Part shown: positions 17,404 through 64,000 of the stretch, in pieces
How positions within the stretch are numbered: the first letter of the stretch is position 1
Layout of the letters: each line of letters opens with the position of its first letter
Origin: a virus
DNA: 64,000 nt
Strand: one strand, 5' to 3'
IMG/VR virus record: IMGVR_UViG_3300042542_005279
Location: 1 to 64,000 of that record
Made by a program: the position numbers and the translations under genes
The notes under the pieces: model-generated
The model's input: only the letters and a program-made list of their open reading frames with translations
What the model was told of the DNA's origin: nothing
The model's database searches: none

Positions 17404-17643
17404 ATGCCAGTAAATGTAGTTATCAGTGGTGTTACAGGACAATCTCCTTATAATGTTTATATCTGTGATGAAAATGTTATAAATTGTACTTGGGTAAGTC
17501 AAATCACATCGGGACAAATTCCTTATAGTTTTGAATTACCGTTCTTTTATCAAAGTGCCTCTGATTTTGCAGTCAAATTAATTGACTCCAACGGTTGTTC
17601 TGTAATAAAATTGAGTGGCACAACTTATGCCGAATGTTTATAA
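17404..17643 (+). CDS. Small tail/adhesin module protein, 79 aa
   Basis: Clearly related to the N-terminus of the minus-strand protein at 23725-24465: VVISGVTGQSPYNVYICD here against IIISSISGLTPPYQIYVCD there, each followed by a Cys, a run of Ile/Thr and a later Cys. It is a beta-rich domain with four cysteines. It is the first of two plus-strand genes (3 nt before the next) within an otherwise minus-strand fibre region. It is probably a tail-fibre or receptor-binding component; the specific role is unknown. Confidence 0.7.
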   Translation: MPVNVVISGVTGQSPYNVYICDENVINCTWVSQITSGQIPYSFELPFFYQSASDFAVKLIDSNGCSVIKLSGTTYAECL

Positions 17644-17646
17644 AAT

Positions 17647-19089
17647 ATGAGTAGTAGTCATTGTAGTAGTTCAATAACAAATTGGTCCTTAGTAAATGAT
17701 GGTTCTGGTGATTATACAGGGACCTCAGCATCAACAACATTTATATGTTTCAATTCCGCTTCAGTATTTTACACTTATTCACCGAAATTTGGTTATTTTA
17801 ATCCCAATACGGATTATATATTTGAAATATCTCCCGTGTTAAGTGGTGAAATAAGTGAAATTGCTAACACAACTGATAAGGTTTGGATTTATACAGGCGG
17901 TACTAACTTAGTTGAATTTAATTTAGAAATGTCTCCTATTTTATTTAACGGACTTGGTGCAGATTTTCCCGCTACAACTTTTAATAGACTTTTAACATCA
18001 AGTGGTGTTACGGCATTTGAAGGTTTAGGTGCGTTGGATAATACTAGATTGGTCGGTGGTTCGGGTTCAACAATTTACTTACATACTATCATAGGTTCAG
18101 GTTTTACAAGTGAATTATTATTTACATTACCTGAATCAAGAATAATAAATGACATATCATACAATTCACTTAAAAACACATTTGTTGTGGCTTGTATGAA
18201 AGCCGATAAAACTTTAAATTACATATCTGAATTCACAACCGGTGGAACATTAGTTAATGATTTTTCTTTTAATAACACGACTTATACAGAAATATTAAGC
18301 ACTGTTGAATATTCGGGTAAAACCTATTTTATGGGTTGGGATAATTCTGTTTCGACTACATATGAAGTTGAAGTTGATATTTTTAACACGGGTTTTACAA
18401 CAGGATATGACTTCGGTAATCCTTCTATTTCTGGGTTTAGTCAATCACCAGGCTCTATTACATCATTTTTTAATTATTCTGCGGCTAGTTATTGTTTATC
18501 AACAAATTATATAACAACATCACAATATGACGGGAATTACACAAGTGGTGGAACATTTAATGGACAAACTGTTTATGCGGGAAATAATGGTGGTGTAATT
18601 TATTATAATTCAGCATCAACACAGTGGTGTTTAGCATCTTACGTTGGAGGACCTTGTATTTTGTTTGGTGGTAATAGATGTTCAAGTACAACTCCTAACT
18701 TGGCAAATGAATTTTTTGCAACCGATATCTGCCCAACACCAACACCATCACCCACTAACGATTGTAGTGTATTGGATTTAGCTGCTTATTTTGATTGTGA
18801 TATTGCACCTCCAACACCTTCTGTGACACCTACTCAAACTGTTACACCATCCACAGGTTTTGTTTATCCAACACCTACTCCAACAATGACGATGAGTCCA
18901 ACTCCATCAGGTAATGTTTGTGCGAATGTTAATTTCTGTTTTGGTGTTCAAAATGTCGCCCCTTCACCATCACCAACACCTACGATGACACCAAGTAGTG
19001 CTGCGGGAAGAAACACTGACAGAAGTGGTGTTGTTATTTTTACAACAATAAATGGTGAGGTAATTTGCCCACCAGCACAAATAAGATAA
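17647..19089 (+). CDS. Tail fibre/adhesin-like protein with Thr/Pro linkers, 480 aa
   Basis: Residues 1-355 are rich in Ser, Thr, Gly and Asn with beta-strand periodicity (possibly propeller-like). Thr/Pro-rich linkers then lie at about 361-371 (CPTPTPSPTND), 387-421 and 438-451, joining short Cys-containing segments. The C-terminus, DRSGVVIFTTINGEVICPP, is compact. The linkers resemble that in the protein at 22021. There is no signal peptide, so virion assembly rather than secretion is expected. Tail-to-tail with the RuvC-like gene, only 3 bp apart and without an obvious terminator. Confidence 0.75.
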   Translation: MSSSHCSSSITNWSLVNDGSGDYTGTSASTTFICFNSASVFYTYSPKFGYFNPNTDYIFEISPVLSGEISEIANTTDKVWIYTGGTNLVEFNLEMSPILFNGLGADFPATTFNRLLTSSGVTAFEGLGALDNTRLVGGSGSTIYLHTIIGSGFTSELLFTLPESRIINDISYNSLKNTFVVACMKADKTLNYISEFTTGGTLVNDFSFNNTTYTEILSTVEYSGKTYFMGWDNSVSTTYEVEVDIFNTGFTTGYDFGNPSISGFSQSPGSITSFFNYSAASYCLSTNYITTSQYDGNYTSGGTFNGQTVYAGNNGGVIYYNSASTQWCLASYVGGPCILFGGNRCSSTTPNLANEFFATDICPTPTPSPTNDCSVLDLAAYFDCDIAPPTPSVTPTQTVTPSTGFVYPTPTPTMTMSPTPSGNVCANVNFCFGVQNVAPSPSPTPTMTPSSAAGRNTDRSGVVIFTTINGEVICPPAQIR

Positions 19090-19743: not shown

Positions 19744-21999
19744 TTAAAAATCAAATTTGATAAGGAATTGTTGGATACTTTGTCTAAGTACAGGTGATTG
19801 TAATTTTGATATTGCCATCAAGTTTCTATTTTCATCAAGTAATCCCACTTCAGTTATATAAGATGCGGTTCCTGCTGACCAAGTTGGGTTTGATGTGTAA
19901 GTAAATTCATTAGCAGATAGATTACATAACCATCTCATTTCATAAATCGTTGCCTGTATTTCAGTTTCTATATTACCGTAAAAGAAGTATTCATCTCCAA
20001 AGTTTAATGTTTGACCTGTTTGACCTACCGTAGTTAAATCAATGTAATTTCCTAAGTCATATGAAGACCCAGCATTGTAAAGTGCGTTTGTTATAACAAA
20101 TGTAGTTGCCGATAAATTCGACTGACTAATTGCTGAGGATGGTAGTTGAGATGTTACATCAATAATCTTCCATCCGTTGGGGTCAGGTTTTGTATCTCCA
20201 CTTACTTTCTGACATATAATTTCAAATTTAGTGTAGTCATTTAATCCCGCAACACAACCGAACTCATTTCCGAATGTTACAGAAAAGTTTTGTGATACCG
20301 CATTACAACTTGGGTTTGGCCCTTGTAGTTTTTGATAATAATTACAATGGAGTGAATTAGTAAATGCAAGATTTTTTGTAAATCTATATGTGATGTACAT
20401 ATATTGGTTACTATCGGTCAAAACTCCTGTCTCAGAACCATCAGGTGTTATAGTTGCAACTCTTGGTGCGGGTAAAGTCCAGTTTCGGTTTGATTTGTAA
20501 GACATTGCTGCAATTATTTCATCATCATCAATAATGATTGTATGTAAATCAGGAAAAACTTTACCTATTCTACTTGGATATCCATTAGATGTTGCATATG
20601 TGTCCCACAAGTGATAATATCTATGACCAGGTATATTCATGTCATTATTTAAGTTTGAAGTCAAATAATGTTCTTCAAATAGACCTAACTCGTCAAATCC
20701 TTCAGGGTCAACATAAAAAGTTTGGCCTGAGCAACATGTACCACTTGATTTATGCCATTGTAAAGTTGGCATGTGTAATCTGAAATTTCTAGCCATACCA
20801 ACTGTGTTGGTTACATTATCGGGGTCATATGGTTGTAATGCGAATTTCTCACCATAAACAAAATCAATCGTATTATTTGTATAATGAATTATTGCAATCG
20901 CTTTTTGGTCTTTACCTGACACTGTAATTTGGTCTCCTAATGAGTTGTAATAATAAACAGAACTACTATCAGTTTGACCTGTACTATTACTGTATCCAAA
21001 ATATTCTTTACTTCCTAAATAATTTATAGAACCAAAATTAGAATAATCTTGATAAACTGAACCATTAATACCTGCAGGACTCTCACTCCAAGGTATGTTC
21101 ATATTCCAAATATTTACATTAAATAAATCCACATCACATACTGATTGGAAATTTAAAACATCTTGGTTCCAATGTGGTTCAGGAGTTTCACTATCATAAA
21201 AGTTGGTCATTCCTGATGGATAAACCATAACTCTAATATCACCTGTCGTACCAATGTGAACGTAATCAACAACATCTCTATCTAATGTTACCACATTCCC
21301 TACCACATTTACAACTCTATAAGTCAATACAGGATTACAACTTTGAAATGATAACAAACAATTTCTATCCGTTGGTGGTAATGGAGGGCATGGGTCAAAT
21401 GGTGAATATGGCGATGTACAAGTTCCTGATGCTGGTGTATATGTACAATTACAAGAAGTATCTGTTTGGTAATATATTGTAACAAAATCTCCAGCAGAAA
21501 AAGTTAAAGTGGTTGCAGTATTACATGTATTTTCAGTTACAGTTATGGTATTCTGATTGAAATTAAGTGTACTTATATCAACCGTATAATTTGGCGTTTT
21601 AACATATTCAGACCCAGTTCTAACATACCAATTTGTTGGTAATGTTGAGGTATCGGCACTAAAAAATCCCCTCATTGGCGCTACGTTATATACATCAGAA
21701 ACAACTGAGTCCATAAATGGTATCCCATATGTTGAACCTTGGTTACCATCTACATAATATGGATATTTGATATTTTGTACGTTTGCTGAAGGTACGGGAG
21801 CACTATTTGCAGAATTAAAGGATGGTTCTAAAATTACAGTATTTGTTTGGTCAAAATTAGTTATTACATTGTAAGAAACCTCACTATCACCAATTTGGAA
21901 ATATTTTATATTGAAATTACCTTGAGACATTTTTTCTCGTCCCGTATCTGTAATTCTTGTGTTAATTAATCCTGAGGTATTTTTTAATATATAAGCCAT
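19744..21999 (-). CDS. Tail fibre/baseplate-attached protein, 751 aa
   Basis: The N-terminus, ITDTGREKMSQGNFNIKYFQIGDSEV (split: ITDTGREKMSQG then FNIKYFQIGDSEV), resembles the attachment domain at the start of many phage tail-fibre proteins (a '...GR..ia.g...f...avGd' pattern). The rest is a long beta-rich, Thr/Ser/Asn/Tyr-rich body with a Cys-rich patch near residue 180 (TSCNCTYTPASGTC). The C-terminus, ITEVGLLDENRNLMAISKLQ, is also typical of such fibre attachment domains. It is probably a fibre or its baseplate adaptor. A TATTTAT element lies 5 nt before the ATG. Confidence 0.8.
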   Translation of the reverse strand: MAYILKNTSGLINTRITDTGREKMSQGNFNIKYFQIGDSEVSYNVITNFDQTNTVILEPSFNSANSAPVPSANVQNIKYPYYVDGNQGSTYGIPFMDSVVSDVYNVAPMRGFFSADTSTLPTNWYVRTGSEYVKTPNYTVDISTLNFNQNTITVTENTCNTATTLTFSAGDFVTIYYQTDTSCNCTYTPASGTCTSPYSPFDPCPPLPPTDRNCLLSFQSCNPVLTYRVVNVVGNVVTLDRDVVDYVHIGTTGDIRVMVYPSGMTNFYDSETPEPHWNQDVLNFQSVCDVDLFNVNIWNMNIPWSESPAGINGSVYQDYSNFGSINYLGSKEYFGYSNSTGQTDSSSVYYYNSLGDQITVSGKDQKAIAIIHYTNNTIDFVYGEKFALQPYDPDNVTNTVGMARNFRLHMPTLQWHKSSGTCCSGQTFYVDPEGFDELGLFEEHYLTSNLNNDMNIPGHRYYHLWDTYATSNGYPSRIGKVFPDLHTIIIDDDEIIAAMSYKSNRNWTLPAPRVATITPDGSETGVLTDSNQYMYITYRFTKNLAFTNSLHCNYYQKLQGPNPSCNAVSQNFSVTFGNEFGCVAGLNDYTKFEIICQKVSGDTKPDPNGWKIIDVTSQLPSSAISQSNLSATTFVITNALYNAGSSYDLGNYIDLTTVGQTGQTLNFGDEYFFYGNIETEIQATIYEMRWLCNLSANEFTYTSNPTWSAGTASYITEVGLLDENRNLMAISKLQSPVLRQSIQQFLIKFDF

Positions 22000-22020: not shown

Positions 22021-23652
22021 TTATTTTGCCGCGTTTGTTGTCATAACCACAGAGTCCACACTTTGAGAGCTTACGTTACAACAAGTACATCCGTTTATTG
22101 CTTTATTTATTAACGATACAGTATCTGTTGATTTCAAAATACAAACGTTTCCAGATATAATTTTAGCAACCTGTCTTTGTACTGTTCCTGAAATAACATC
22201 AGAACCTGAAATTGTTAGTCCTTGATATATTCTTGTTGTTCCTGTATTAAACTGTGTTGGTTGACTCGGACATGTTGAGTTTACTGCGGTTGTACTATTA
22301 GAAGTTTGTACAGTTGGTGTAATTGACTGTGTGACGTTATTTTTCTTAACACTTATAACACCGTTAACGCTTCCACCGTTTTGTACAGTAGAACTATAAA
22401 TTGTATTAACTTGTATGTCGAATGATATTTGAGTACCGCTTGGAAGTGTAGTTACTTGGTTACCATTATTATCGTAAACTTTAACAGTATAATTTAATAA
22501 AGAGTTCCCTGAACCTTGTGGTACAATACTTGAATTTATCTCCAAAACATAAGTGTTCAAGGTTGTAGGTTGTGGAATTATTGCCGTTTGTGTTAATGTC
22601 ACACTATTAGAATCTTGAACCCAAATTTGATATGTACCAGGTGGTTTGTTTGAGAATAATGGATTTGTTTGAGTTTGTGCCCCACCATTTAATGAATATA
22701 ATATAGGAGGTGTTCCATTTACAGTATTAACATATATAGAACCTGTGTTTGGTTGATTTTCACAAACAGGTGTCTGAATAGTAGGACTATTCAAAGTCAT
22801 CAAAGGGTTTCCGCAAGCACCATTTGTCATAAAAGCAGTGTTTGAAGAACCGTATAGTTGAAAAGCACCTGTAGGAATTAATATGTTTGAACTATTAGTC
22901 AGAACTGATGATGTTGTACTTCCTGCAACAGGCATAACCACTCTCCATTGGTTTGGGTTTGTATTCCAAGAAAGAACATATGGACCATAAATCCAAGTTG
23001 ACCTACCATTTATTATTGTTGCTGATGGTGAGAACTGATATTGATAATAATTACGACCTGAATTTACTTGTAAACATAAAGTCGTGTTATTACTTGGAAA
23101 AGGAGTAGGTGTTGGGGTAGGAGTAGGTGATGGGGTTGGAGTTGGTAAAGCTAATGAACAAGTTGTTACCGCAGTATAATCAGGACCGCCACCGGGCCAA
23201 CTATAATCAGTTACGGTTATTTCATAGGTTTGACCTGGAACCGCATTTGATAATGTAGGGCCAATTAAACCATTTGACCACTTAATTGTGTAAGGGGGAG
23301 TTCCACCCGTTACAATCATCGTAATTGTATTAGCACTTAAATTAGGTGAACATTCAACTCCCATAGGGGCTATCGTAATAACATCACACTCGCTTGTTGC
23401 GGTAATTCTAGTACATGGATATGTTGCCGTACAATTTGTACATGACGACTGACTTGTTAATGTTGAACCTGCTTGTGGATATGTTGGTGATGCAGGTAAA
23501 AGTTGACCTATTGGAATTACGGTAGAACATCCCGAAAAATATCCGGGTATCTGAACATAATAAACATCACCCAAAGTTAAGGACGAAACCAAACCAGTTA
23601 ATGTATATGTTACGTTATTATCGCAACAGGATTTTAGATATGAATTAGCCAT
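22021..23652 (-). CDS. Tail adhesin with SprB-like domains and Thr/Pro linker, 543 aa
   Basis: The N-terminal Cys-rich domain (about residues 1-110) is followed by a SprB-like repeat (GGTPPYTIKWSNG ... PGQTYEITVTD, about 134-163). A Pro/Thr/Ser linker (about 173-188) and a beta-domain come next. A second SprB-like unit (GTPPILYSLNGG ... PPGTYQIWVQDSN, about 310-352) precedes a C-terminal beta-rich region with a Cys cluster (NGCTCCN). SprB repeats are known from the flavobacterial gliding adhesin, so this is a likely receptor-binding or surface-binding tail protein. A TATTTAT element lies 42 nt upstream. Confidence 0.75.
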   Translation of the reverse strand: MANSYLKSCCDNNVTYTLTGLVSSLTLGDVYYVQIPGYFSGCSTVIPIGQLLPASPTYPQAGSTLTSQSSCTNCTATYPCTRITATSECDVITIAPMGVECSPNLSANTITMIVTGGTPPYTIKWSNGLIGPTLSNAVPGQTYEITVTDYSWPGGGPDYTAVTTCSLALPTPTPSPTPTPTPTPFPSNNTTLCLQVNSGRNYYQYQFSPSATIINGRSTWIYGPYVLSWNTNPNQWRVVMPVAGSTTSSVLTNSSNILIPTGAFQLYGSSNTAFMTNGACGNPLMTLNSPTIQTPVCENQPNTGSIYVNTVNGTPPILYSLNGGAQTQTNPLFSNKPPGTYQIWVQDSNSVTLTQTAIIPQPTTLNTYVLEINSSIVPQGSGNSLLNYTVKVYDNNGNQVTTLPSGTQISFDIQVNTIYSSTVQNGGSVNGVISVKKNNVTQSITPTVQTSNSTTAVNSTCPSQPTQFNTGTTRIYQGLTISGSDVISGTVQRQVAKIISGNVCILKSTDTVSLINKAINGCTCCNVSSQSVDSVVMTTNAAK

Positions 23653-23724: not shown

Positions 23725-24465
23725 CTAACATGGATTTATTTCGGTACATTCATCACAACTTTCCATAACAGGAAAAGGAAAGACACTAGATATGTTAGTG
23801 TTAACTGAACTATTCCAATCAGATTGTACATATGTTTGGTCAGGGGTTTCGTAATTACTAATTACAATAGTACATCCTGTATAACCTGTACCAGTTCCCG
23901 AACCCGAAGTTGGTATGTTCACATACCAAGAAATGTTTGGGTCAAAAGTTGATTGAAATGTTGAATCGAATGTAAAAGTGTAATCTGAGCAACAAGCACT
24001 AAAATAACTTGGTGCATCCACATCATAACACTCTTGACATGTATTATAAGGTACGCTACTTACTGTTAGTGTTTCACCAACTTCATTTGTAAATTGATAT
24101 CCTGAAAAATACCAACACTCAGAGTATTCACTTAATGTGACTGTTTTACCAAATTCTAAAAATGGGTCAACATTAGTATATTTACATTCAGATAAGTTAC
24201 TACATTTACAAAATGTGTATAATACATTACCGAAGTATGAACAAACTACGGGTATTTCTTTTACACAAGGAACATTTGTTTCTATTATCTTTAAAGAAAC
24301 CGCAGGAGCTCCACTAAAAAAATCAGGTAAAGGAAAAACTTCAATAGGTGGTACCGTTGATGTTATTGTTTGAATAAATTGACAATTATTACCTAAGAAA
24401 TCACAAACATATATTTGATATGGGGGTGTTAAACCTGAAATTGATGAAATAATTATATTTTTCAT
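23725..24465 (-). CDS. Cys-rich tail/adhesin protein, 246 aa
   Basis: The N-terminal domain matches the 79-aa plus-strand protein at 17404 (IIISSISGLTPPYQIYVCD). A Cys-rich middle follows, with pairs such as CKCSNLSEC and CQECYDVD. The C-terminal domain, containing Gly/Thr-rich GSGTGTGYTG and ending ESCDECTEINPC, resembles the C-terminal module of the genes at 24469 and 26770. All three share short gaps (3 nt or less), so they form one fibre unit. It probably contributes to host recognition; no enzymatic motif is seen. Confidence 0.72.
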   Translation of the reverse strand: MKNIIISSISGLTPPYQIYVCDFLGNNCQFIQTITSTVPPIEVFPLPDFFSGAPAVSLKIIETNVPCVKEIPVVCSYFGNVLYTFCKCSNLSECKYTNVDPFLEFGKTVTLSEYSECWYFSGYQFTNEVGETLTVSSVPYNTCQECYDVDAPSYFSACCSDYTFTFDSTFQSTFDPNISWYVNIPTSGSGTGTGYTGCTIVISNYETPDQTYVQSDWNSSVNTNISSVFPFPVMESCDECTEINPC

Positions 24466-24468
24466 AAT

Positions 24469-26766
24469 CTAACAACTTTCACAATCTATGTCATAAACAA
24501 TTTTTAATTGTACAGTGATATTTTGATTTGCTAAACCATTATTTGACTCTTCACATGAGGTATCAACTGTGATTGTATTTTCAGTAGTATTAACTGTTAC
24601 AGTTCCGATACCTGTGGCACCACTTAATAGATTTTTAACCGTATTTGACCACTGTGTTTCGGTAGGAACGTCATTAAGTGTTGTTGCGGTATAAAATGAT
24701 TGACTATAACCCGTTCCTGCAACAGTTGTAACCGCTGAGAAAATTGCGCTATTCATCAAACAATTTGTACACCCACTTGTTAAATCAAGATAACCCTCAA
24801 CTAACATTTTTGACATATCTCGTTCAATTATTTCACCTGTTGATGCAATAACACTATCACACACGTTAAATAATGAAAAATTACTTGCTAAAAATGTACC
24901 CTGTAAAGTTATACTATTAGATAACACGCATCCCGCAAAATCTGTCACGGTTAAAGTGTAAGTACCTGCAGATAAATTAGTTACAGTATTTCCCGTTTGA
25001 CCATTGACATTTGATGACCAAGTTAGTGTGAATGGAGGTAACCCTTGATATATGTTAGCAACAATTTCACCATTCGAACCATTTGTTGAGTCCTGTGGTA
25101 TAAGTGTAAAATTCACATTTTCACTACTATTGATAACAAACGAACTTGTTTCCTCACACAAATTTTTATCTTCAATGGTTGCAAAATAAGTACCTGGTGC
25201 TAAGTTACTAAAAGTATATGAACTAAAAAGTATTTGTGGTGACGCTTGATTATTATTTCCATCGATATCTACAATTGAGAATATGAATGGTCCTGTCCCT
25301 CCTGACGCCTTTGTGATTGTTACAACTCCATTATTATTTCCACATGTTGTACCTGTGGTATCAATTGTAAGACTATATAATGACGTTGTTTCTAAACTAT
25401 ATATATTAGTGTAAGTACAAACACCATCAGTAATTGTAAGTGAATAATTTTGTGAGGATAAATTAGTAAATGTTTGACTTAATCCTCCAACTCTGTTTAA
25501 ACTTGTTCCGTTTGCACCGCTTAAAGTATAAGTATAACTTATACCATTTGTATTACCAATTAAAGTTATATCTAAGATTCCATTCGAATTACCACATGTT
25601 GGTTGTGTTATATTAATAGCACCAATCGCAAAACTATTAGATTGATTTATTTGTACTGAAGTTTGAGTGTTACATAATGCAGCATCTGTAATTATAATCT
25701 GATAATTACCCCCTGGAAGATTAGTGAAAGTATAGGTTTGGGAGTAACTTATATCGGTGAATGAAATTGAGGGTATATTAAATCTATATGGTGGCGTTCC
25801 ATTGATTAAAGTTACCGTTATAGAACCATTACTTTCAAAACAAGTAGGTGGATTAGTTTCGGTTGATGCTATTGATACTGGTAGTTTTTCAGTAATTTCA
25901 GATGTGACAGTTAAAAAACATCCAGCAGCGTCTGTTACGGTTACATCATAAAAACCGGCAGTCAAACCTGTGATAGATGAACCGCTTAAGGATTGATTTG
26001 AGTCCGAGAGGTATTGTATAGTGTTGCCAACCCCATTCCAACGATAATTATATGGTGATGTACCTGTCAACCCTGTAATAAAAATTTTACCAACTCCAGT
26101 ACTTACATTACCGCAATCCGCATCATTTACGATATAAGTACCAAAGTTTAGTTGGGTTGAAGAATTGATAATAACATTTTCGCTTCTTCCAGTACACCCA
26201 CCACCATCATTAGCAATGATATAATAAACACCGCTCGGTAAATTTTGGAATGTGTAAGAGTTTGAACCAATATTAACAAAATCTATTAAATCAGGATTTG
26301 CATTCTCAATGTTTGGTTGTTCTAATGGTGGTAAAGTCGTGTTGTTTTGTAAATATAAATAAAAATCAACGTTACCATTACTATTTTGTATGGTAGCGGT
26401 CAAAGACCCGTCATTATTTCCGCAGGTAGTATTGATTACATCTGAAATATTTACACATGAAGTTCCTGACGATACTGTAATACTTACTGTCTGTCGATTG
26501 TTTTGAGTTGTGGCGGTCGGTGAACCACAACTATCATTAACAACAAAAACATATGTTCCCGCCGGTACGTTGAAATAATCTCTCGAACCATTTAAAACTC
26601 CTGTTTCAGGGTTTTCTCCTCCATAAGGAGGCCAAGGATTTGGTGAAATCCAAGTAATACTCATTGGTTCTGATGTGGATGACAAATATAATGTAAATCC
26701 ACCTGAACCATTATTTTCGCAATCACCTATAACTGAAAACTGACTAAAATCGTATGAACAAGGCAT
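24469..26766 (-). CDS. SprB-repeat adhesin-like tail protein, 765 aa
   Basis: About seven tandem units of 75-100 residues each follow the pattern '..C....G......NG..PY.......L..G.Y...I.D...C'. Clear examples are CFESNGSITVTLINGTPPYR, GLTGTSPYNYRWNG and LPPFTLTWSSN with SAGTYTLTVTDFAGC. This is the SprB repeat of Bacteroidota cell-surface gliding adhesins. The C-terminal 120 residues form a different Cys-containing module (PTETQWSNTVKNLLSG ... VDTSCEE), shared with the neighbours. There is no signal peptide or secretion (type IX) tail, so the protein is expected to sit on the virion. It is likely receptor binding or an attachment fibre mimicking host adhesins. Confidence 0.82.
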   Translation of the reverse strand: MPCSYDFSQFSVIGDCENNGSGGFTLYLSSTSEPMSITWISPNPWPPYGGENPETGVLNGSRDYFNVPAGTYVFVVNDSCGSPTATTQNNRQTVSITVSSGTSCVNISDVINTTCGNNDGSLTATIQNSNGNVDFYLYLQNNTTLPPLEQPNIENANPDLIDFVNIGSNSYTFQNLPSGVYYIIANDGGGCTGRSENVIINSSTQLNFGTYIVNDADCGNVSTGVGKIFITGLTGTSPYNYRWNGVGNTIQYLSDSNQSLSGSSITGLTAGFYDVTVTDAAGCFLTVTSEITEKLPVSIASTETNPPTCFESNGSITVTLINGTPPYRFNIPSISFTDISYSQTYTFTNLPGGNYQIIITDAALCNTQTSVQINQSNSFAIGAINITQPTCGNSNGILDITLIGNTNGISYTYTLSGANGTSLNRVGGLSQTFTNLSSQNYSLTITDGVCTYTNIYSLETTSLYSLTIDTTGTTCGNNNGVVTITKASGGTGPFIFSIVDIDGNNNQASPQILFSSYTFSNLAPGTYFATIEDKNLCEETSSFVINSSENVNFTLIPQDSTNGSNGEIVANIYQGLPPFTLTWSSNVNGQTGNTVTNLSAGTYTLTVTDFAGCVLSNSITLQGTFLASNFSLFNVCDSVIASTGEIIERDMSKMLVEGYLDLTSGCTNCLMNSAIFSAVTTVAGTGYSQSFYTATTLNDVPTETQWSNTVKNLLSGATGIGTVTVNTTENTITVDTSCEESNNGLANQNITVQLKIVYDIDCESC

Positions 26767-26769
26767 TTA

Positions 26770-29748
26770 TTATTGACAATTAATTGAGAAATCTACTCCC
26801 ACGTTTATTTGAAATTCTGAATTTAAATTTAGTCCATCACAAGTAACTGTAAATATTGTAACTTGATTACCTGATATTTCATACGCTAAACCATAAGCAA
26901 ATAAATTATCTAATTGTGTTTCTAAGGCGGTTAACCATTGAGCAGATGTTGGATAACTTAAAGTACCTAAATCAATACCAACTCCCTCAAAAAACTTATA
27001 ATTTATAATTGTTGACCCTGCCAAACTTATATTTACATACCAACCACTACTAATTGTTGTTGTGTCGCAAGTTGGATTACTATTTGTATAGTTTGAAATT
27101 ACTGAGTTTAATATAGAACCAAAGTTATTACCAATACTTGGGTTAGAAGTCCAAGGATAAATGTCGCAAATTGTTTGAGCCTGAGGACAGTCATATGTTA
27201 ATATAGGCCCAACCAAAGTACATGGGTTGCAAGGAACAGGAACAATCTGACAACCTCTTTGTCTTCTCCAAACAAATTTTTGTCTATGAAATGCCGAATT
27301 TTCAAATCTTGTTCCGGCGTTCCAAAGTGTTGTTGCAGGAACCATTTGTTCCACCAGTCTCACCCAATAATCACCAATACCTTTTACATAGTTAATCATT
27401 TTTTGATAAGTGAATAAACTATCAGGTATTTCTTCAAAATCAATTGATTTCAGATATTTCCAATAAACAGATTCTAGTGTTGGATATCCCCCTGTTTTAC
27501 CATTTGTAATATATTGTCTATCACGGACATTAATCATGTTTTGCCAAAATGTTTGAGCAAATTCAAAAAATGTTTTATCGATTGGATTTGGGTCAATTAA
27601 TGTTCTATCTAAAATTGTTGGGTTCAGATATGTTGGGCAGTAACAATTACCACTTATTGTGTATCCTGTTGATGGAATTGGGTAATTATAATTTAATGAA
27701 AGATACCATACATCATATGTTAAGGCTTGACCAGGATTTAAAAACACATCAACATTTTTAGCGTTTAGTGTCAGTTTTTCATTGTCAACAAAATAAAATG
27801 AGTTGTTTCCGTCTGTATTTCTTCTTAAACCAATTTCTTCATCAGTCCAACTTTTCTTGTTATCTTTGGTTCTTGTTAGTGAAAACCCTAAATCAGTATA
27901 TGGGAAATCTCTAAACCTATCAAAGTATTTTTGTCCGTATGTGAAATCTTGTAATTTAGTTTGGAAATTAGGGTTTTGACCCGTAAAAGTACTAGATGTC
28001 GCATCAAATACTTCGTTGGCTCTATGTTGTGGTGTTTGTTCAAACCAACCCGCACCTTGTTGGAAAAAGAAACTTTCAGTATCGTCAGGGGCTTTTGGGT
28101 AACCATTATCATCAACAGGGAACTCTTCTCTTGATAATTCAACATCCAAGATTGTGGTTTGAATTGTAAATCCTGTAAAGGTTCTACCTAAAATTCTAAA
28201 TGTATTTTCAGGTTCCAAAACAGGTAAATCAATCGCGTATGTTCCACCAGAAATCTGAGCATATTGTTGATTAAATTGGTTCATATTAATCCTTTGGTCC
28301 GCTAAGTAGATATATTCGTTGAAATCTACAAGAGCATCAGGTGCACCAATTAATCTTAATAAGTTTTGAATTGATGCTCTTGTTCCTTTGGATTTGAATA
28401 GGTATGCCGAATTTAGAATTAAATTTCTATAAAATTGATAGTTTAACTCATCGGGTGTAGGAGCAACTGGTTGTCCGCTGAATTGACTTGGTGTATTATT
28501 ACCAAATACGGATTCTAATAACCCCTCATTTGATATTGGAGATATGTTTGCGGTCCAACCTAATGTTTGGGCTAAATTTTTTAGTAATTGAGATGGTATG
28601 TCATTTTTAACATTGTAATTGACCGAGTTCATGAAGGCAAGAGCCTCAATAAACTTCTTAACTTGGTCAAAACTTCTACCGTAAAGTTCTAAAACTTTAA
28701 GTATTTTTTGGTCATTAGTGTCAAAATCTTTAAACGCGCCTGTTGTTAAAAATCTTACAATCAAATTAGTTTTGAATTGGTCAAAATTTTCGGCAATCGC
28801 ATTTAAGTTCTGTAAGTAAGTCGTAAATGATGGTGTTACAATATCTATGTTCCAAGGTCCATATAATGGCCAAGTCACAGAATCCGTAGTCACAAAAGTG
28901 GTACCATCATTCGCTTCTTTAACAACGGTAAAGTATGCGGTATATAGTGGAAAATTTTTTCTATTTAATATAAACTTTTCAACCTCATCAAAATCCTGAA
29001 CAAAAACCATTTCTGTGGTCATGGGGTTTAATCTGATATTTAAATCATCATAAGTTAAAGATTGACCTGAAAATGGATTTCCCTTGACAGTTAATGTAAT
29101 TGTTCCACCTGTTATACTTTGACTTGGTGTAATGAAAGTACAATCATAAGGAGTACCACTTAAATAAAGGCTATATTTATCTATATTTTTTACCATATCC
29201 CTCATTGGTGATATTTCAATCTCATAAAGGGATATATTTCGTGTTGAATTTACACTAAAATCAATATTGAAAGGATTTACAATTTTTGTAACGTCTATAG
29301 TAAAAGTTGTATTATCCGTTGATTCATTGTAAGTTATATTAGTAGCGGTTGTTCCTGTTGTATAATTTCTTCTGAAATAAACATCAAAAGATGCGGGAAA
29401 GAAATTGATAATTTTTGTAACCGATACTGACATTCTTTTTACCAAAGAACCGTACTGTGAAAACAAAGATACCTTACTTAAATCATAATTAGGATATACT
29501 TGAAAGTTCTTCTCAATAATCGCTTTGGATTCCTCAACGGATGTCATACCCATTGAGTCCAAAGTTATCGGTTCAGAAAAAGTTCCAACTACAAATTCTC
29601 TGTTAGATTTTTCAGTTATTGATACCGTAAAATCAAAATTACCTTGGGTAAGACCTCCCCCATCTACAATCTGAAAGCCTACCAGATTGTCAGAAAACGT
29701 ATTATCTGCAGTTGCCTGTTGTGGGGGACAAGTATATTTTTTAGCCAT
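26770..29748 (-). CDS. Baseplate/tail protein with P2 gpI-like region and adhesin C-terminus, 992 aa
   Basis: Residues 1-320 are beta-rich domains. Residues about 330-475 resemble the P2 gpI (tail protein I) helical region, including NDIPSQLLKNLAQTLGW and FKSKGTRASIQNLLRLIG, where 'KGT..a...ll.liG' is typical. A long beta-rich part follows. The last 120 residues (PTSAQWLTALETQLDNL ... IFTVTCDG) form the Cys-containing module also seen at the end of the 24469 protein. A baseplate protein bearing a receptor-binding tip is a reasonable model. It overlaps the gene at 29748 by 1 nt. Confidence 0.78.
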   Translation of the reverse strand: MAKKYTCPPQQATADNTFSDNLVGFQIVDGGGLTQGNFDFTVSITEKSNREFVVGTFSEPITLDSMGMTSVEESKAIIEKNFQVYPNYDLSKVSLFSQYGSLVKRMSVSVTKIINFFPASFDVYFRRNYTTGTTATNITYNESTDNTTFTIDVTKIVNPFNIDFSVNSTRNISLYEIEISPMRDMVKNIDKYSLYLSGTPYDCTFITPSQSITGGTITLTVKGNPFSGQSLTYDDLNIRLNPMTTEMVFVQDFDEVEKFILNRKNFPLYTAYFTVVKEANDGTTFVTTDSVTWPLYGPWNIDIVTPSFTTYLQNLNAIAENFDQFKTNLIVRFLTTGAFKDFDTNDQKILKVLELYGRSFDQVKKFIEALAFMNSVNYNVKNDIPSQLLKNLAQTLGWTANISPISNEGLLESVFGNNTPSQFSGQPVAPTPDELNYQFYRNLILNSAYLFKSKGTRASIQNLLRLIGAPDALVDFNEYIYLADQRINMNQFNQQYAQISGGTYAIDLPVLEPENTFRILGRTFTGFTIQTTILDVELSREEFPVDDNGYPKAPDDTESFFFQQGAGWFEQTPQHRANEVFDATSSTFTGQNPNFQTKLQDFTYGQKYFDRFRDFPYTDLGFSLTRTKDNKKSWTDEEIGLRRNTDGNNSFYFVDNEKLTLNAKNVDVFLNPGQALTYDVWYLSLNYNYPIPSTGYTISGNCYCPTYLNPTILDRTLIDPNPIDKTFFEFAQTFWQNMINVRDRQYITNGKTGGYPTLESVYWKYLKSIDFEEIPDSLFTYQKMINYVKGIGDYWVRLVEQMVPATTLWNAGTRFENSAFHRQKFVWRRQRGCQIVPVPCNPCTLVGPILTYDCPQAQTICDIYPWTSNPSIGNNFGSILNSVISNYTNSNPTCDTTTISSGWYVNISLAGSTIINYKFFEGVGIDLGTLSYPTSAQWLTALETQLDNLFAYGLAYEISGNQVTIFTVTCDGLNLNSEFQINVGVDFSINCQ

Positions 29749-40101: not shown

Positions 40102-41940
40102 TTAACTGAAATTAACAGTTTTTAGATTCTTGACTCTAACGCTGATGTCTTTACCAGGAAACCTGACTTGGTATGTTTGTGATGGTTCAGCGAATATCGT
40201 TTCATCAATTAATTCAATTTGTTTAGTTGCTGAGTCAGAGTATCTTTGTGAAGTTTGTGAAGATGAGTATTGTCCTCCCACTAAGTTAAAGACATCAATC
40301 TGTGCTACTGTAACTACACCATTTAGGTTTTGAATATCCTTTTTGATTTCTGAGACATACACGTTTTGTCCCATTTCACGATTACTTGGTGAGAAGTAGT
40401 TAGAAATAATATCTACGATTTGAGTGATAATTGAACCTTGATTTTGACCACCGTCTAATACTACATAAACATCAAATTTAAGGTCAATAACTTGAGCACT
40501 TTCAATTGATACGTAATCATTAATCATTCTGTAATTTGACAAATAATTTGCAAGGTTTGATTTAATGGTGTTTGATAGTACGTTAGTTAATTTACCCGTG
40601 GAATCATAAGATAAACATTGTATTCTGATTTTGTTATCTTGTTCTATAATTGCGACTTTTGCAGGTGCTCCGAACTGTGACGGCATACCACGTATAATCG
40701 ACTCGTAGTCATTAATTGTAACCGCTCTTTTTTGTGCTGCAAAATTATATGTTACATAATTTCTTACTTCCTCTACCGTTGGGAAATTTGCACCTCCAAT
40801 TGCTGCGGTTGTATTAGTACAATTCAAAGAGTTAATAACTGATGTGTTTTGTGATTGAGATGGTCCATTAACTGCAAAATTAATAGTACCCAATTGATTA
40901 ATTACATTAACACCAACATTACTACTTATACCACCACCCACTCTATATTGAATAAACAATGTTGAGTTTGCCTTTAGAGTACTTCCCAACGCTAAGTTGT
41001 TTGAATATTTCTGTAAGTTAAGTGGATTTCCTGTTGCTGCGAACTCTCTTAATTGTTCATCAGCGGATTGACTACCTCCACCGAAAGTTAATTTAAAAAA
41101 TCCTTCAGGGGTAAATTCTGTAATAAATTTGTTGCTTGTAGAGATATATTTACCTACCTTTATACCAGGTTGGTCAGACGCTTTGGTTGGGTCTTCTACG
41201 AAAACCTTATCTTGTATTAACGCATCTACCTCATACCATCTCCCGTTTGTTCCCAAAAAATCTTGGTCATTAGGTACATTAGCATATTGAGTTCCGTCTT
41301 TTAGTAACACACTTGTAACCCCCAAAACATTTTTTTCAGGTAGGAATAATTCAAAAAATGGCACAACATCGTTTGGTAAAATAGTTCTTTTGAAAACTTT
41401 TGTGATACCATTTACTACGGTTTCTCTTTTTGTGATTGTATAGTTTAATATATTACCGTTAGAATCTAAATTAGGAATTTTTGTTCTGTTAGGGAACCCT
41501 TCATTATTGAATGGTGATGTGAAATCTATATCATATACGGTTTCAAATGTTTGTCCTGCGCCTTGAACTTGTGAGCCTCGTCTTATAACACCACAATACC
41601 TAATATCTTCTTTATCTCCAAACGCTGGAACAATGATTGAAAAATCAACCAAAGCAACAGATGGTCTTTGTCCCGGTACTTTTAATCCGTAAGTTCTTGC
41701 AATGTTATAAATTGATGAACGTTGCTGCGCATATTGTAAAACAGTTTCTTGGATACTTCTGTCAATCTGAAATTGTAAGTTGTCTGATACCGCAGCGTTT
41801 AAATCCAACAAAACTGAAAATACAGATGCATCATTTACATTGGCAAGTAAGTCAGGATAATATGTTCTTACAAAATTAATTAATTCAGTCCTAATTGATT
41901 GAAAATCTCTGACTGTATATGATATTTTTTTATTAGCCAT
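40102..41940 (-). CDS. 6: Baseplate wedge protein, T4 gp6-like (baseplate J family), 612 aa
   Basis: Forms the inner ring of baseplate wedges that join around the hub. The N-terminus (YTVRDFQSIRTELINFVRTY ... DASVFSVLLDLNAAVSDNLQ) is the classic gp6/gpJ start, and the C-terminal half has the baseplate-J segment RAVTINDYESIIRGMPSQFG with PAKVAIIEQDNKIRI. The length is close to T4 gp6 (660 aa). It is adjacent to the gp25-like gene, as in T4 and most contractile injection systems. The gap to that gene is 4 nt, so they are co-transcribed. Confidence 0.92.
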   Translation of the reverse strand: MANKKISYTVRDFQSIRTELINFVRTYYPDLLANVNDASVFSVLLDLNAAVSDNLQFQIDRSIQETVLQYAQQRSSIYNIARTYGLKVPGQRPSVALVDFSIIVPAFGDKEDIRYCGVIRRGSQVQGAGQTFETVYDIDFTSPFNNEGFPNRTKIPNLDSNGNILNYTITKRETVVNGITKVFKRTILPNDVVPFFELFLPEKNVLGVTSVLLKDGTQYANVPNDQDFLGTNGRWYEVDALIQDKVFVEDPTKASDQPGIKVGKYISTSNKFITEFTPEGFFKLTFGGGSQSADEQLREFAATGNPLNLQKYSNNLALGSTLKANSTLFIQYRVGGGISSNVGVNVINQLGTINFAVNGPSQSQNTSVINSLNCTNTTAAIGGANFPTVEEVRNYVTYNFAAQKRAVTINDYESIIRGMPSQFGAPAKVAIIEQDNKIRIQCLSYDSTGKLTNVLSNTIKSNLANYLSNYRMINDYVSIESAQVIDLKFDVYVVLDGGQNQGSIITQIVDIISNYFSPSNREMGQNVYVSEIKKDIQNLNGVVTVAQIDVFNLVGGQYSSSQTSQRYSDSATKQIELIDETIFAEPSQTYQVRFPGKDISVRVKNLKTVNFS

Positions 41941-41944
41941 ATTT

Positions 41945-42403
41945 TTATATATTAATTATTATAAAATCACTTGATTCAAAAGCATTTGATGTAACAACAA
42001 AGTCAATTCTTACTTTTGCGGTATGTTCTTTTGTTCCTATACCAGGCACCCTGAAAACTCTTTCGTCTCCCGATATTACAGTTCTTTCGTCACTTTCTTC
42101 CTCTGTTGATGCATCATACACTTGAAGGTTGGTTATTTTAAGATTGGGAATATATTTCTGAACTGAATCTCTAATTTCCGCATCTATTTGAGAAAATGTA
42201 GGTCCATCCATAGGTTCAAAAATATATTCATATAACCTTGTTCCGAAATCTGGTAGAAAATATCTAGTACCTCTTCTTGTTAATAATAGATGTATTAAAT
42301 CCGTCCTCAACTCTTCATCAGGTTTAGTTGATAAATCCAAATATCTACCATCGTTAGAATCTCTAAATGGGAAATTTATACCATATGTAACTCCGTTTGC
42401 CAT
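41945..42403 (-). CDS. 25: Baseplate wedge protein, T4 gp25-like (GPW/gp25 family), 152 aa
   Basis: A small wedge and sheath-initiator protein. Typical family features: PFRDSNDGRYLDLSTKPDEEL, then LIHLLLTRRGTRYFLPDFGTR (split LIHLLLTRRGTR / YFLPDFGTRLYEYIFEP) and the following helix. The R-G-x-R and the PDFG-x-R-L-x-x-x-IFEP motif are characteristic. Acidic and Glu-rich after residue 105. It is paired with the gp6-like gene downstream. A TATTTAT element is only 4 nt before its ATG. Confidence 0.93.
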   Translation of the reverse strand: MANGVTYGINFPFRDSNDGRYLDLSTKPDEELRTDLIHLLLTRRGTRYFLPDFGTRLYEYIFEPMDGPTFSQIDAEIRDSVQKYIPNLKITNLQVYDASTEEESDERTVISGDERVFRVPGIGTKEHTAKVRIDFVVTSNAFESSDFIIINI

Positions 42404-59704: not shown

Positions 59705-62700
59705 TTATAATATTTTTCCATTAAATTTAGCTCCTTGGGAAGGAACTGATTTATATAAATTAAGTAATTTTTCTTTAACTTCATCAGCATTAGGTACATT
59801 ACTTGTAAAATTAACCTTTCTGTCATTTGATAAACTGCTTAGTTTGAAATTACCATAGGTCTTAAATTTTCTAGGTAGATTACTTCCTCCGAAAAAATTT
59901 GTTGGTATTTTATCTAAATTATTTTTTGCCTGTCTATATCTATCATAAAAACTTTTACCGAATACCAAGTTGAAGGCGTCTCCAAAATCCAAACCTAAAA
60001 TATCATTTAAGAATTTTTTAGGTTTTTTCGGATTATCTACCTCAATACCACCAATCATATTATTTGGAAAAACAAAATCACTAAATTCTTGCAATTTGTT
60101 TTTATCAGTGAATGTTTGAGAAATAATCATGAAGAAATCAGATTCTACATCGGGGTCGGGTATATTATTGTCTGGTACTAGTAAGAAATTATTACTTGGG
60201 GTAATTATTTTGTTATCTCCTAAACTAACTATAAATTCATCTAAATCTACCGCTACTTTTTCTAAATCCGATTTTATATCAAACATAGAATTTCCAGACA
60301 GTTGGTATGGTAAAGCAGACCCATCGGTTTTTATTTGCCCATCATTTTCACCATAAACTAAATTCATCTTATCAATAAAATTTATAACTTTTTGTTGTTG
60401 TTCATAAAGAGGTAAAAGTTGTTGTGTAATTCCCGCAACAAAATTAGATTTTATTTTTTGATTTATAAAATCAATCATTTTTGATTTTAATTGTTTGATA
60501 ACAGGTTCCTTAAACCCTTTTTCTACAAATTTAGCAACCAAAACATTTGTTTCTTTATTTATTTGATTTATCACAAAATTAAATCTATCGTCAAATGTTT
60601 TATCTAAATTTTTTGGTTTGCCATAGATTTCTGTAGTACCTGTATTAGGAAATTCACCTTCTTTATATTCCCTTTCTTTATCAGTATATTGCCAAACATA
60701 GAAATTGTAATTTTTAGTTATCGCCTCACAAGTACTATTTACAGATTTAAAATAAACTTCTAACTCATCGAAAAATTCTTTCATGACTTTCCTATAACTT
60801 ATTTTACCCGTAAAAAACTCCCCATCATATGAAGTAGATAATATTTCTCCGATTGTAGAACCACCAGGATTTTGTATTTTATTTTGAGGTTGTGGTGGTG
60901 GTACTTCTTTATCCAATAATCCTTTTTCAACAATTGCGTCTAACTTACTAACATCTTCAGTTGCCACCGCTCTTTCATCGTATATTTCAGTATTTGCATA
61001 GTAATTGAAAGATAATGCGTTTTGTAAATCTTCTACAGGTCTTGCAAGACCACTTCCTCCAATAAAATCAAACGAAAGGGTGACATTTGCAATCATAGGT
61101 TGAATTCCTATACCTTCTCTATTCATATCTAATATTAGAGGTTCATAACTAAATTGGAGGTTTCTTGGTATTATTTTGGTATTATAAAAATCACCAATTC
61201 TTAAAACTAAAACTGGCGGTCGTCCAAATGCCGTATTTACCGCATCGTTATAAACAGGTCTTCCATCTGCACCAATAGTGGGTATAGTATCTCCCGGTCT
61301 CAAACACTGATTCAAAAATGTGATTCTTGAATTCAACCCTTCAGGTGTTGTGGAATGAAATGTTGGTTCAAAAAATTTAAGTTTTTGTTTTAAAGACCTA
61401 TAAAGAAAAGGGCTAGTCTCTTCAATTGCTTGAAAATAATTACACTCGCTCAATAATAATCTTAGTATTTTTTTACTGAGCCCTTGTTGTCTAATTGTTT
61501 CAAAAACGGGTTCACTAACCTGTGAACCTTTATTTGGTAAAATTTTAAGTTTGTTTGTTTCAGGTACATTACTAGGTGGTAGTGTAACTTCAACAGTTGT
61601 TTGTACCTCTATAGGGTCCTCAAGTGTCGTAGTAATATCTGAAATAAAAACACTTCTACATGACATAGAAGGTAATAAGTAAATTGAATTAGGTCCTGTA
61701 ATTGTATTACCATTTATAACTGGATTACTGGTACATGCTGCAACGGTTCTGAATGAAGAATTCCCTTTAGGTGACACCTCGGTTGCAGTTTCCCCTAATG
61801 CTTCGTCATTTATTGTTATTTTTGGTAAAAAATCCTTCAAAGAAATTTTAGTATCACCACTTGATATTTCATAAGTTTCTAAAAGTTTTTTTACTGATTT
61901 AATTCTTCTTAATGCCAATTTATTGTTATAATCTACGCTAGCACTTGCCGACGCACAACCTTTTATGTTGATTGTCATATTTTTTATTTGCTTTCTATTG
62001 AAGAAATCATATATCTTCAATATAAATCCATCGTTAGAATTTGTAATTTTTTCGTAATTGTTTATGATGATGTCATCAAAAAATTGACCGACACTATTTT
62101 TATCCGGCTCTATAGTTTTTTGAACGTATGTAGATTTTTTTGCAATATAAGCTTCGTAATATGATTGAAAACTAGATGGTTCTGTTTCTTTTGGGGTGTC
62201 ATTATCAAAATAAAAACCATACCCTAAAAACTCGTCTTTTGGAAATGCGGTTGGCGTTATAGTGTCTGTTTTCGTTTGTGTTACTACGTTTGGGCCAGGT
62301 TCTGATTCTGTTGGATTTGTTGCGATACTATTAGTAATGTTTATCGCTTCTGCGGGTGTTGCATTCGATAAAATTTCTTGAATATACTGTAAATCATTTA
62401 ATGAAACATTACTGAATCTTGTTGCAAAATCATATAAATCATATGTTTGACATCCCGCAAAAAACGATTCAATTACTTTATCAGCATTTGAATCCAATTC
62501 ATTTGTCAAAATTTTATCAACAATTAAATTTAATACGGACGGGTGGTCAACTACAATCTTCCAACTCAAAGTACCGTTTCTTGAAGTACTTCTATATGTG
62601 TACACAGGCTCAGGTCTTCCAAGAAAGGTAGTGTCTTGCCAATTCGCTGTTGAGTTATCATTGAATTTTAAGTCGTAAGGTGGAAACCACATTATTCTAC

Positions 62701-64000
62701 CCCCATTTGGTCCTCTTTCACATAATGGTAAATCTTGAACATTGAATCCTGGTTTTTTTGAATCTTTCCATGCCAAGTTTTCAATAGAAAACATATATTT
62801 TTTAACGTTTCCCTCTCCTAACCATGATGGTGTAGGTCCGTTTTCAACAACTTTTGTTGGATAAATGTTCAAATTATAAGTGTTATCCAAAACAGAGTAT
62901 GAAAATCTTCTACCGAAATTTGTAATGCCATCAGATTTTTGTAACCTATCATATGTTGCGTAAGGTGAATCTTTGGTAAAAATTCTACAGTATTCTGTTC
63001 CAACTTCGGCTTTACCATTTACATAAGTTACTTTTTGAACTTTAGAACCTTTTGTTATATTTCTATATCCATCATTGAATATTCTACTTACTTGGTTTAT
63101 CGCGTTTCCGACATGTTTAAATCTTGCCTCACCTTGTAATCTATCCGCAGCATCAATTAATCTTTGTGTATCATCTAAAATTGAACCCGGTTTGAAGTTA
63201 ATTGATGTAGAATAAAATGAACTATTTCCTGCTTTGTACTTTGGCGAAACCCAAATTAAATCACTTTCTATATTTCCTTGGTCAATAAGGGCACTTGACC
63301 TAAGACCAAAATTAATACGACTTTCATTTCCTTCGTAATCTTTACCCAACACATCAGGACCCAATACTATTGCTTGAGTATCTCTACCATAGTTATCAAT
63401 AGGTGTTTGATTAATTGGTGATGTAGCAAAACTTGGTTCAGATGTGATTGAACCAACATAATAAGCACCTGGTAGTTGTAATCCAAAATTATCTAATATG
63501 TTATTAACACCAGTGGTTAAAATATTTCCTAACAATCCTGATGCAGTACTATCACCATAAGCGGGTCTGAAAATGTTGTAAGAAAGGTTTGCGAACATCA
63601 AACCTTTTTGACCATCGTTTGTATTTTCTAAAAATATTTGTGAAGGAGTAATCGCCCTTGTTAAAGAACCATTAAATATACCACCGACAGTTGTACTTCT
63701 ACCGGCAACAAGATTAATTACTTCACCTAAAGTATCGGTTGTTCTTTTATTTAAACCGTCTAAAAAGTAATCACCTGGTATTGGTGATGCTGGTACATAT
63801 GTTCCTGCTAACTTACTTATGAACGTATCATTAACATCAGGAGTTGTGATTTTGAAACTTACTGAATTATCGTTTTGTAAAGATTGGTCTATGAAAAAGG
63901 CATCGGTTTCTAATAAAGATTTTTTCAGAACTTGAGCACCTATTTTTGCCAAATAAGAGTCATTACTTAAAGGTCCTTTATTACCAACAGGGTTTGGACT
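59705..64000 (-). CDS. Giant tail protein with OmpA-like domain, 5' end beyond the window
   Basis: The frame remains open to the window edge (SPNPVGNKGPLSNDSYLAKIG), so at least 1431 residues are present and the true start lies outside; an internal TTG at 63952 is not needed. A segment GRIMWFPPYDLKF ... FLGRPEPVYTYRSTSRNGTLSW (about residues 445-475) looks like a conserved tail-assembly signature I cannot name. At about 670-740 there is an OmpA-like stretch (MTINIKGCASASASVDYNNK, LALRRIKSVKKLL), normally a peptidoglycan-binding fold. It shares the unit with the LysM-like and hub-like genes. Probably a baseplate or tail-tip protein contacting the cell wall. Confidence 0.78.
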   Translation of the reverse strand, partial: SPNPVGNKGPLSNDSYLAKIGAQVLKKSLLETDAFFIDQSLQNDNSVSFKITTPDVNDTFISKLAGTYVPASPIPGDYFLDGLNKRTTDTLGEVINLVAGRSTTVGGIFNGSLTRAITPSQIFLENTNDGQKGLMFANLSYNIFRPAYGDSTASGLLGNILTTGVNNILDNFGLQLPGAYYVGSITSEPSFATSPINQTPIDNYGRDTQAIVLGPDVLGKDYEGNESRINFGLRSSALIDQGNIESDLIWVSPKYKAGNSSFYSTSINFKPGSILDDTQRLIDAADRLQGEARFKHVGNAINQVSRIFNDGYRNITKGSKVQKVTYVNGKAEVGTEYCRIFTKDSPYATYDRLQKSDGITNFGRRFSYSVLDNTYNLNIYPTKVVENGPTPSWLGEGNVKKYMFSIENLAWKDSKKPGFNVQDLPLCERGPNGGRIMWFPPYDLKFNDNSTANWQDTTFLGRPEPVYTYRSTSRNGTLSWKIVVDHPSVLNLIVDKILTNELDSNADKVIESFFAGCQTYDLYDFATRFSNVSLNDLQYIQEILSNATPAEAINITNSIATNPTESEPGPNVVTQTKTDTITPTAFPKDEFLGYGFYFDNDTPKETEPSSFQSYYEAYIAKKSTYVQKTIEPDKNSVGQFFDDIIINNYEKITNSNDGFILKIYDFFNRKQIKNMTINIKGCASASASVDYNNKLALRRIKSVKKLLETYEISSGDTKISLKDFLPKITINDEALGETATEVSPKGNSSFRTVAACTSNPVINGNTITGPNSIYLLPSMSCRSVFISDITTTLEDPIEVQTTVEVTLPPSNVPETNKLKILPNKGSQVSEPVFETIRQQGLSKKILRLLLSECNYFQAIEETSPFLYRSLKQKLKFFEPTFHSTTPEGLNSRITFLNQCLRPGDTIPTIGADGRPVYNDAVNTAFGRPPVLVLRIGDFYNTKIIPRNLQFSYEPLILDMNREGIGIQPMIANVTLSFDFIGGSGLARPVEDLQNALSFNYYANTEIYDERAVATEDVSKLDAIVEKGLLDKEVPPPQPQNKIQNPGGSTIGEILSTSYDGEFFTGKISYRKVMKEFFDELEVYFKSVNSTCEAITKNYNFYVWQYTDKEREYKEGEFPNTGTTEIYGKPKNLDKTFDDRFNFVINQINKETNVLVAKFVEKGFKEPVIKQLKSKMIDFINQKIKSNFVAGITQQLLPLYEQQQKVINFIDKMNLVYGENDGQIKTDGSALPYQLSGNSMFDIKSDLEKVAVDLDEFIVSLGDNKIITPSNNFLLVPDNNIPDPDVESDFFMIISQTFTDKNKLQEFSDFVFPNNMIGGIEVDNPKKPKKFLNDILGLDFGDAFNLVFGKSFYDRYRQAKNNLDKIPTNFFGGSNLPRKFKTYGNFKLSSLSNDRKVNFTSNVPNADEVKEKLLNLYKSVPSQGAKFNGKIL

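Follow-up and report, generated by a model that had tools for sequence, protein, structure and literature searches.

The 765-aa protein encoded at 24469-26766 on the minus strand is probably a stalk of fixed length, made up of seven Ig-like domains, that is located at the baseplate of a contractile-tailed phage and presents exchangeable receptor-binding tips. The protein has a clear architecture, its family is real and well delimited, and it is not an SprB adhesin. Its gene lies in the window, the 64,000-nucleotide stretch of DNA that was analysed, which is part of an 81,616-base IMG/VR virus record.

The seven-repeat protein and its operon

The features listed here are all encoded on the minus strand:

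24469-26766, minus: 765-aa putative stalk protein with seven SprB-type (Ig-like) repeats (ORF, PF13573, AlphaFold2)
26464-26766, minus: repeat 1, aa 1-101 (repeat alignment; own-position clade in 19/19)
26146-26463, minus: repeat 2, aa 102-207 (repeat alignment, tree)
25873-26145, minus: repeat 3, aa 208-298; the position nearest to bacterial SprB repeats (tree)
25627-25872, minus: repeat 4, aa 299-380; holds the best SprB Pfam unit
25372-25626, minus: repeat 5, aa 381-465 (repeat alignment, tree)
25111-25371, minus: repeat 6, aa 466-552 (repeat alignment, tree)
24883-25110, minus: repeat 7, aa 553-628 (repeat alignment, tree)
24469-24882, minus: conserved alpha/beta C-terminal domain of about 137 aa, matching in type the C-terminal end of the 992-aa neighbour (hhalign, models)
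26770-29748, minus: 992-aa conserved neighbour, likely baseplate/fibre-connecting
23725-24465, minus: 246-aa putative small adhesin-like accessory protein, 57-78% identical in close relatives
22021-23652, minus: 543-aa protein with two SprB-like units, a TP-rich linker and a variable C-terminal half
19744-21999, minus: 751-aa conserved tail-region protein, 75-85% identical in full-length or near-full-length relatives
40102-41940, minus: gp6-like baseplate wedge (Baseplate_J)
41945-42403, minus: gp25-like baseplate wedge (PF04965, 2.8e-11)

Seven divergent tandem repeats of about 76-106 aa cover aa 1-628 of the protein and are followed by the C-terminal domain of about 137 aa. The units are 14-35% identical to each other in pairwise comparisons of the repeat alignment. 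AlphaFold2 (27 sequences, mean pLDDT 79) modelled a row of seven beta-sandwiches that ends in one alpha/beta C-terminal domain; with a pTM of 0.39, the relative placement of the domains in this model is unreliable. The SprB family of Pfam (PF13573) matches the protein at 4.8e-7, its 29.7 bits exceeding the cut-off of 28, and the best unit, at 25780-25863 in repeat 4, scores 35.6 bits. SprB also matches all 27 aligned relatives (best E 2e-30). Other Ig-like and beta-sandwich families overlap the protein, more weakly than SprB. The preliminary description of this DNA had reported about seven tandem repeats of the SprB pattern, in a tail-gene context and without secretion signals, all of which is borne out here. 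The alternative it named, a generic Ig-like family with no link to SprB, does not fit, since PF13573 passes its cut-off, the relatives match it and the plasmid-borne matches described below are all from Bacteroidota.

At the DNA level the repeats of the stalk gene are weak, consisting of short imperfect copies only, and no tandem array was found within the gene. This is consistent with old duplications. The opposite strand of the gene holds no ORF of at least 80 aa. A hydropathy check, as distinct from a dedicated predictor, found no signal-peptide-like hydrophobic start, the maximum 10-aa hydropathy at the start being 0.78 as compared to 2.65 in an SprB-repeat protein of the phage record LR756502. 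No T9SS sorting domain was found above threshold; the sole match, Por_Secre_tail, scores 13.7 bits against 23 and lies mid-protein (aa 480-536). Pfam scans of the protein gave no match to CHU_C or Fibritin_C, and none to BACON up to an E-value of 10.

The record encodes a tail sheath (phrog_23, 1e-57), a tail tube and a baseplate hub which, together with the gp25-like and gp6-like genes, identify it as a contractile-tailed phage. The stalk gene shares its strand with the baseplate genes and lies downstream of them, in a baseplate/fibre operon; in all the relatives that were examined, it comes directly after the conserved baseplate-region gene. By profile comparison, the 992-aa neighbour matches proteins encoded in the baseplate regions of Mel-JY01 (5.9e-11) and immuto (1.1e-5). 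An identity of this neighbour with P2 gpI was considered and rejected, as Tail_P2_I scored only 11.8 bits against a cut-off of 20.6 and scans of 13 members gave no support. The C-termini of the stalk protein and the 992-aa neighbour are of the same type (hhalign probability 94.5%, E 7.5e-8), and their models share the order H-E-E-H-E-E-E. The model of the neighbour (pLDDT 46) is too poor for fold matching, and its docking role is thus putative.

We suggest that the gene product is part of the virion, in the baseplate/tail-fibre region, and that its seven SprB-flavour Ig-like domains form the stalk. The conserved C-terminal domain, resembling the end of the neighbouring baseplate-region protein, would close this stalk, which may present or dock tips that bind the receptor.

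The gene for the 246-aa protein comes after the stalk gene in close relatives as well. Two adhesin-like ORFs of 79 and 480 aa are located at 17404-19089 on the plus strand, opposite to the tail operon; the 480-aa ORF is TP-rich and is found on the opposite strand in the relatives L010 and L021 too. Furthermore, 59705-63952 encodes a 1415-aa tail-region protein with a weak, below cut-off match to the OmpA family (E 7e-4).

Relatives, repeat order and exchangeable tips

A viral search using the 765-aa protein itself gave no relative, and relatives were instead gathered via the conserved 992-aa neighbour, which yielded 80 IMG/VR loci. Two scans of bacterial genomes, one based on the neighbour alignment and the other on repeat 3, also gave no relative; these covered few peptide patterns and are weak negatives. 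The family is already present in UniProt as "SprB repeat" (A0A6J5LD72, uncultured Caudovirales phage, 714 aa), a full-length structural match with 31% identity over 769 columns. That entry consists of a name, and no function, stalk/tip architecture or comparative analysis was seen there.

Exactly seven repeats are present in all 63 complete downstream ORFs that were scored automatically, and L050 also has seven. Downstream genes cut by a contig end have seven repeats or fewer; in L082 and L085, which carry an N-terminal insertion and are cut early by the contig end, the repeat number is unreadable. Complete stalk proteins among the relatives range from 708 to 1498 aa. The stalk evolves faster than the 992-aa neighbour, as shown by identities of 67% and 84%, respectively, between the window and L010.

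The order of the repeats is conserved along with their number. In 43 of 43 representatives, and at all seven positions, each repeat is matched best, in another phage, by the repeat of the same number, and among phages less than 45% identical this rule has one exception only. We placed 133 phage repeats in a tree together with 115 comparison repeats from Bacteroidota plasmid proteins, the LR756502 protein and RB43 wac. Repeats 1-4, 6 and 7 form position-pure clades in 19/19 phages and repeat 5 in 18/19, and every phage repeat lies at least as close to its own positional orthologue as to any comparison repeat. In 18/19 phages repeat 3 is nearer to the comparison repeats than to repeats at the other phage positions, and may mark the ancestral unit.

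Beyond the conserved domain of about 137 aa the picture is different, with 21 relatives extending past it by roughly 67-790 aa. Stalks that are 73-83% identical carry tips without detectable similarity in the pairs L043/L036, L043/L031, L036/L031, L029/L037 and L022/L025; tips of the LRR-tipped group remain related to each other. Recognised tip domains are DUF285/LRR in four proteins (L027, L049, L051 and L053) and a propeller-like region in L031, and TP-rich linkers are present in 11 of the 21 long forms. Judging from these sequences, it is the C-terminal tip and not the repeats that gets exchanged. In many relatives the tip is fused at the C-terminus, often across a TP-rich linker, and has been replaced wholesale by LRR, propeller-like or other domains.

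This conserved shaft with a replaceable domain at its presumed distal end is found in the relatives. The window protein has no fused tip, so that a carrier function here rests on them. In the subclade of the window this chain lacks the tip, which a separate protein probably supplies in trans, the candidate being the product of 22021-23652, two genes downstream of the stalk gene. The C-terminal half of this protein falls to 22-40% identity to L021, and its gene evolves fastest in the cluster, at 42-58% identity compared to 54-69% for the stalk and 70-84% for the 992-aa neighbour. Its two SprB-like units are an addition to the preliminary description. A more far-reaching version, which we put forward tentatively and consider less probable than otherwise, is that the invariant seven-SprB rod serves this clade of uncultured phages as a spacer of fixed length, that receptor-binding tip cassettes are swapped at the TP-rich linkers in cis or in trans, and that the SprB flavour may engage the surface of gliding Bacteroidota.

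Two further kinds of protein were observed near the stalk genes of relatives. A 241-aa protein that has one SprB-like unit is encoded on either strand in L044, L046, L050, L051, L053, L059 and L083. In one subgroup (L055:18114-22961, L065, L073 and L078) the stalk cluster is followed by the gene for a long protein that contains collagen-like (SGTSGTSG)n runs.

A constant stalk with cassette tips would give the loose "SprB repeat" annotation of proteins from uncultured phages an architecture that can be tested. It would also indicate where host range is determined in this uncultured contractile-tailed clade, which is present in many metagenomes.

Alternative roles and the host

The main rival to a tip-presenting stalk is a neck whisker of fibritin type, or a capsid or tail decoration, whose projecting Ig-like domains would make weak surface contacts and not act as a receptor-binding fibre. 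We regard this as rather unlikely. In its favour, RB43 wac, a fibritin (L089:857-3145; Fibritin_C 5.1e-23), has three units by the repeat profile (E 1.7e-16) and scores 41.9 bits as SprB. Furthermore, the best PDB sequence matches of the 765-aa protein are Ig domains of phage decoration proteins (T5-type) and neck whiskers, and PHROGs gives it one match only, to a virion structural protein in the "head and packaging" category (E 0.0029). Against it are the lack of Fibritin_C in the window protein, the position of the stalk gene next to a baseplate-region gene, and the LRR and propeller-like tips of the relatives. Exchangeable tips of this kind are unusual among decoration proteins.

Mimicry of the host, as proposed in the preliminary description, would mean that the array copies host SprB and enables the phage to bind SprB ligands or partners on gliding Bacteroidota. 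The SprB family match of the window protein and its relatives agrees with this, and so does the origin of the nearest plasmid-borne relatives, as all ten plasmid records matched by tblastn are from Bacteroidota. Adsorption of some flavobacterial phages involves gliding-machinery proteins, and SprB and RemA have been suggested as possible receptors (PMC13288928). This role in adsorption leaves room for mimicry but is not evidence for it here, and we consider mimicry improbable. Identity to the plasmid-borne proteins is only 23-32%, and the comparison of repeats shows no recent exchange. The repeat type also occurs in RB43, so that a phage of Escherichia has SprB-type domains on one of its virion proteins, the fibritin. 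Since enterobacteria are not known to glide by means of SprB, mimicry is not needed to explain the data.

Judged by the gp6-like wedge, the nearest isolates are the immuto phages of Flavobacterium and a phage of Microcystis; at about 26% identity each, the two are about equally close. Shine-Dalgarno-like sites precede 16% of the starts in this phage (7% in shuffled sequence), compared to 12% in the Flavobacterium phage and 34% in the Microcystis phage. This scarcity resembles the Flavobacterium phage more, which is suggestive only.

Display on the infected cell instead of the virion is very improbable. The model for it is the 1670-aa protein of LR756502.1 (L007:13819-18831), a 642-kb uncultured phage record, which is of the T9SS type and has a signal-like start, 14 SprB stretches, and PKD and CHU_C domains. 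The 765-aa protein has neither a signal-like start nor a T9SS domain, and its gene is part of a baseplate operon. Either this phage record really encodes an adhesin of the cell-surface type, or the stretch in question is bacterial and was wrongly assigned.

Least credible of all is that host range is altered by shuffling repeats with genes of the host, as also raised in the preliminary description. In its favour is the proximity of repeat 3 to bacterial repeats, which is compatible with one ancient capture. The fixed number and complete positional orthology contradict shuffling within the clade and give no support to ongoing exchange. The stalk thus looks unlike a recent copy of a host gene, and the family is a reason not to presume that phages and hosts keep exchanging repeats.

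Comparison with known systems

Among the papers searched, SprB repeats and phages came up together in one only, with a title on bacterial toxins. SprB of Flavobacterium and other SprB-repeat proteins of Bacteroidota share the PF13573 repeats with the stalk protein. In contrast to Flavobacterium SprB, the stalk protein is short, has no signal-like start or T9SS sorting domain, is encoded in a phage baseplate operon and has divergent, position-specific repeats. An 823-aa SprB-repeat protein was also observed on the Aureispira anguillae plasmid pAUEb (L094:3239-5710), between RHS-repeat and "tail fiber domain" proteins.

Ig-like segments of GhpA, the grappling-hook protein of Aureispira, are the best PDB fold matches of the stalk. 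However, GhpA is cellular and far longer (residue numbers reach 5009), and the TM-scores, low at 0.12-0.19 by query, stem from the repetition of domains and not from a shared architecture. RB43 wac and the T5-type decoration protein 5lxk likewise carry tandem or single Ig-like domains on virions, those scoring as SprB in RB43 wac being placed after the Fibritin_C region. The stalk protein differs from both in having no Fibritin_C, seven domains and, in its relatives, replaceable C-terminal tips.

The published system that comes closest is the crAss-BACON array (PMC6949934), where host-type Ig-like domains are also found in tandem beside tail genes of uncultured phages. In crAss-BACON cluster 1 each position forms its own clade and one position is nearest to bacterial domains, as in the stalk family. 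The domain is BACON there and SprB here, so that the architecture is shared and the domain is not. For clusters 7 and B, horizontal transfer of single domains was inferred in that study, whereas no such transfer was seen in the stalk family; the part of the study considered here describes no stalk of seven fixed domains to which replaceable tips are fused. The stalk family would thus be a second case, with a different domain, in which a host-type Ig-like repeat was adopted and its number and order then became fixed in a phage tail region.
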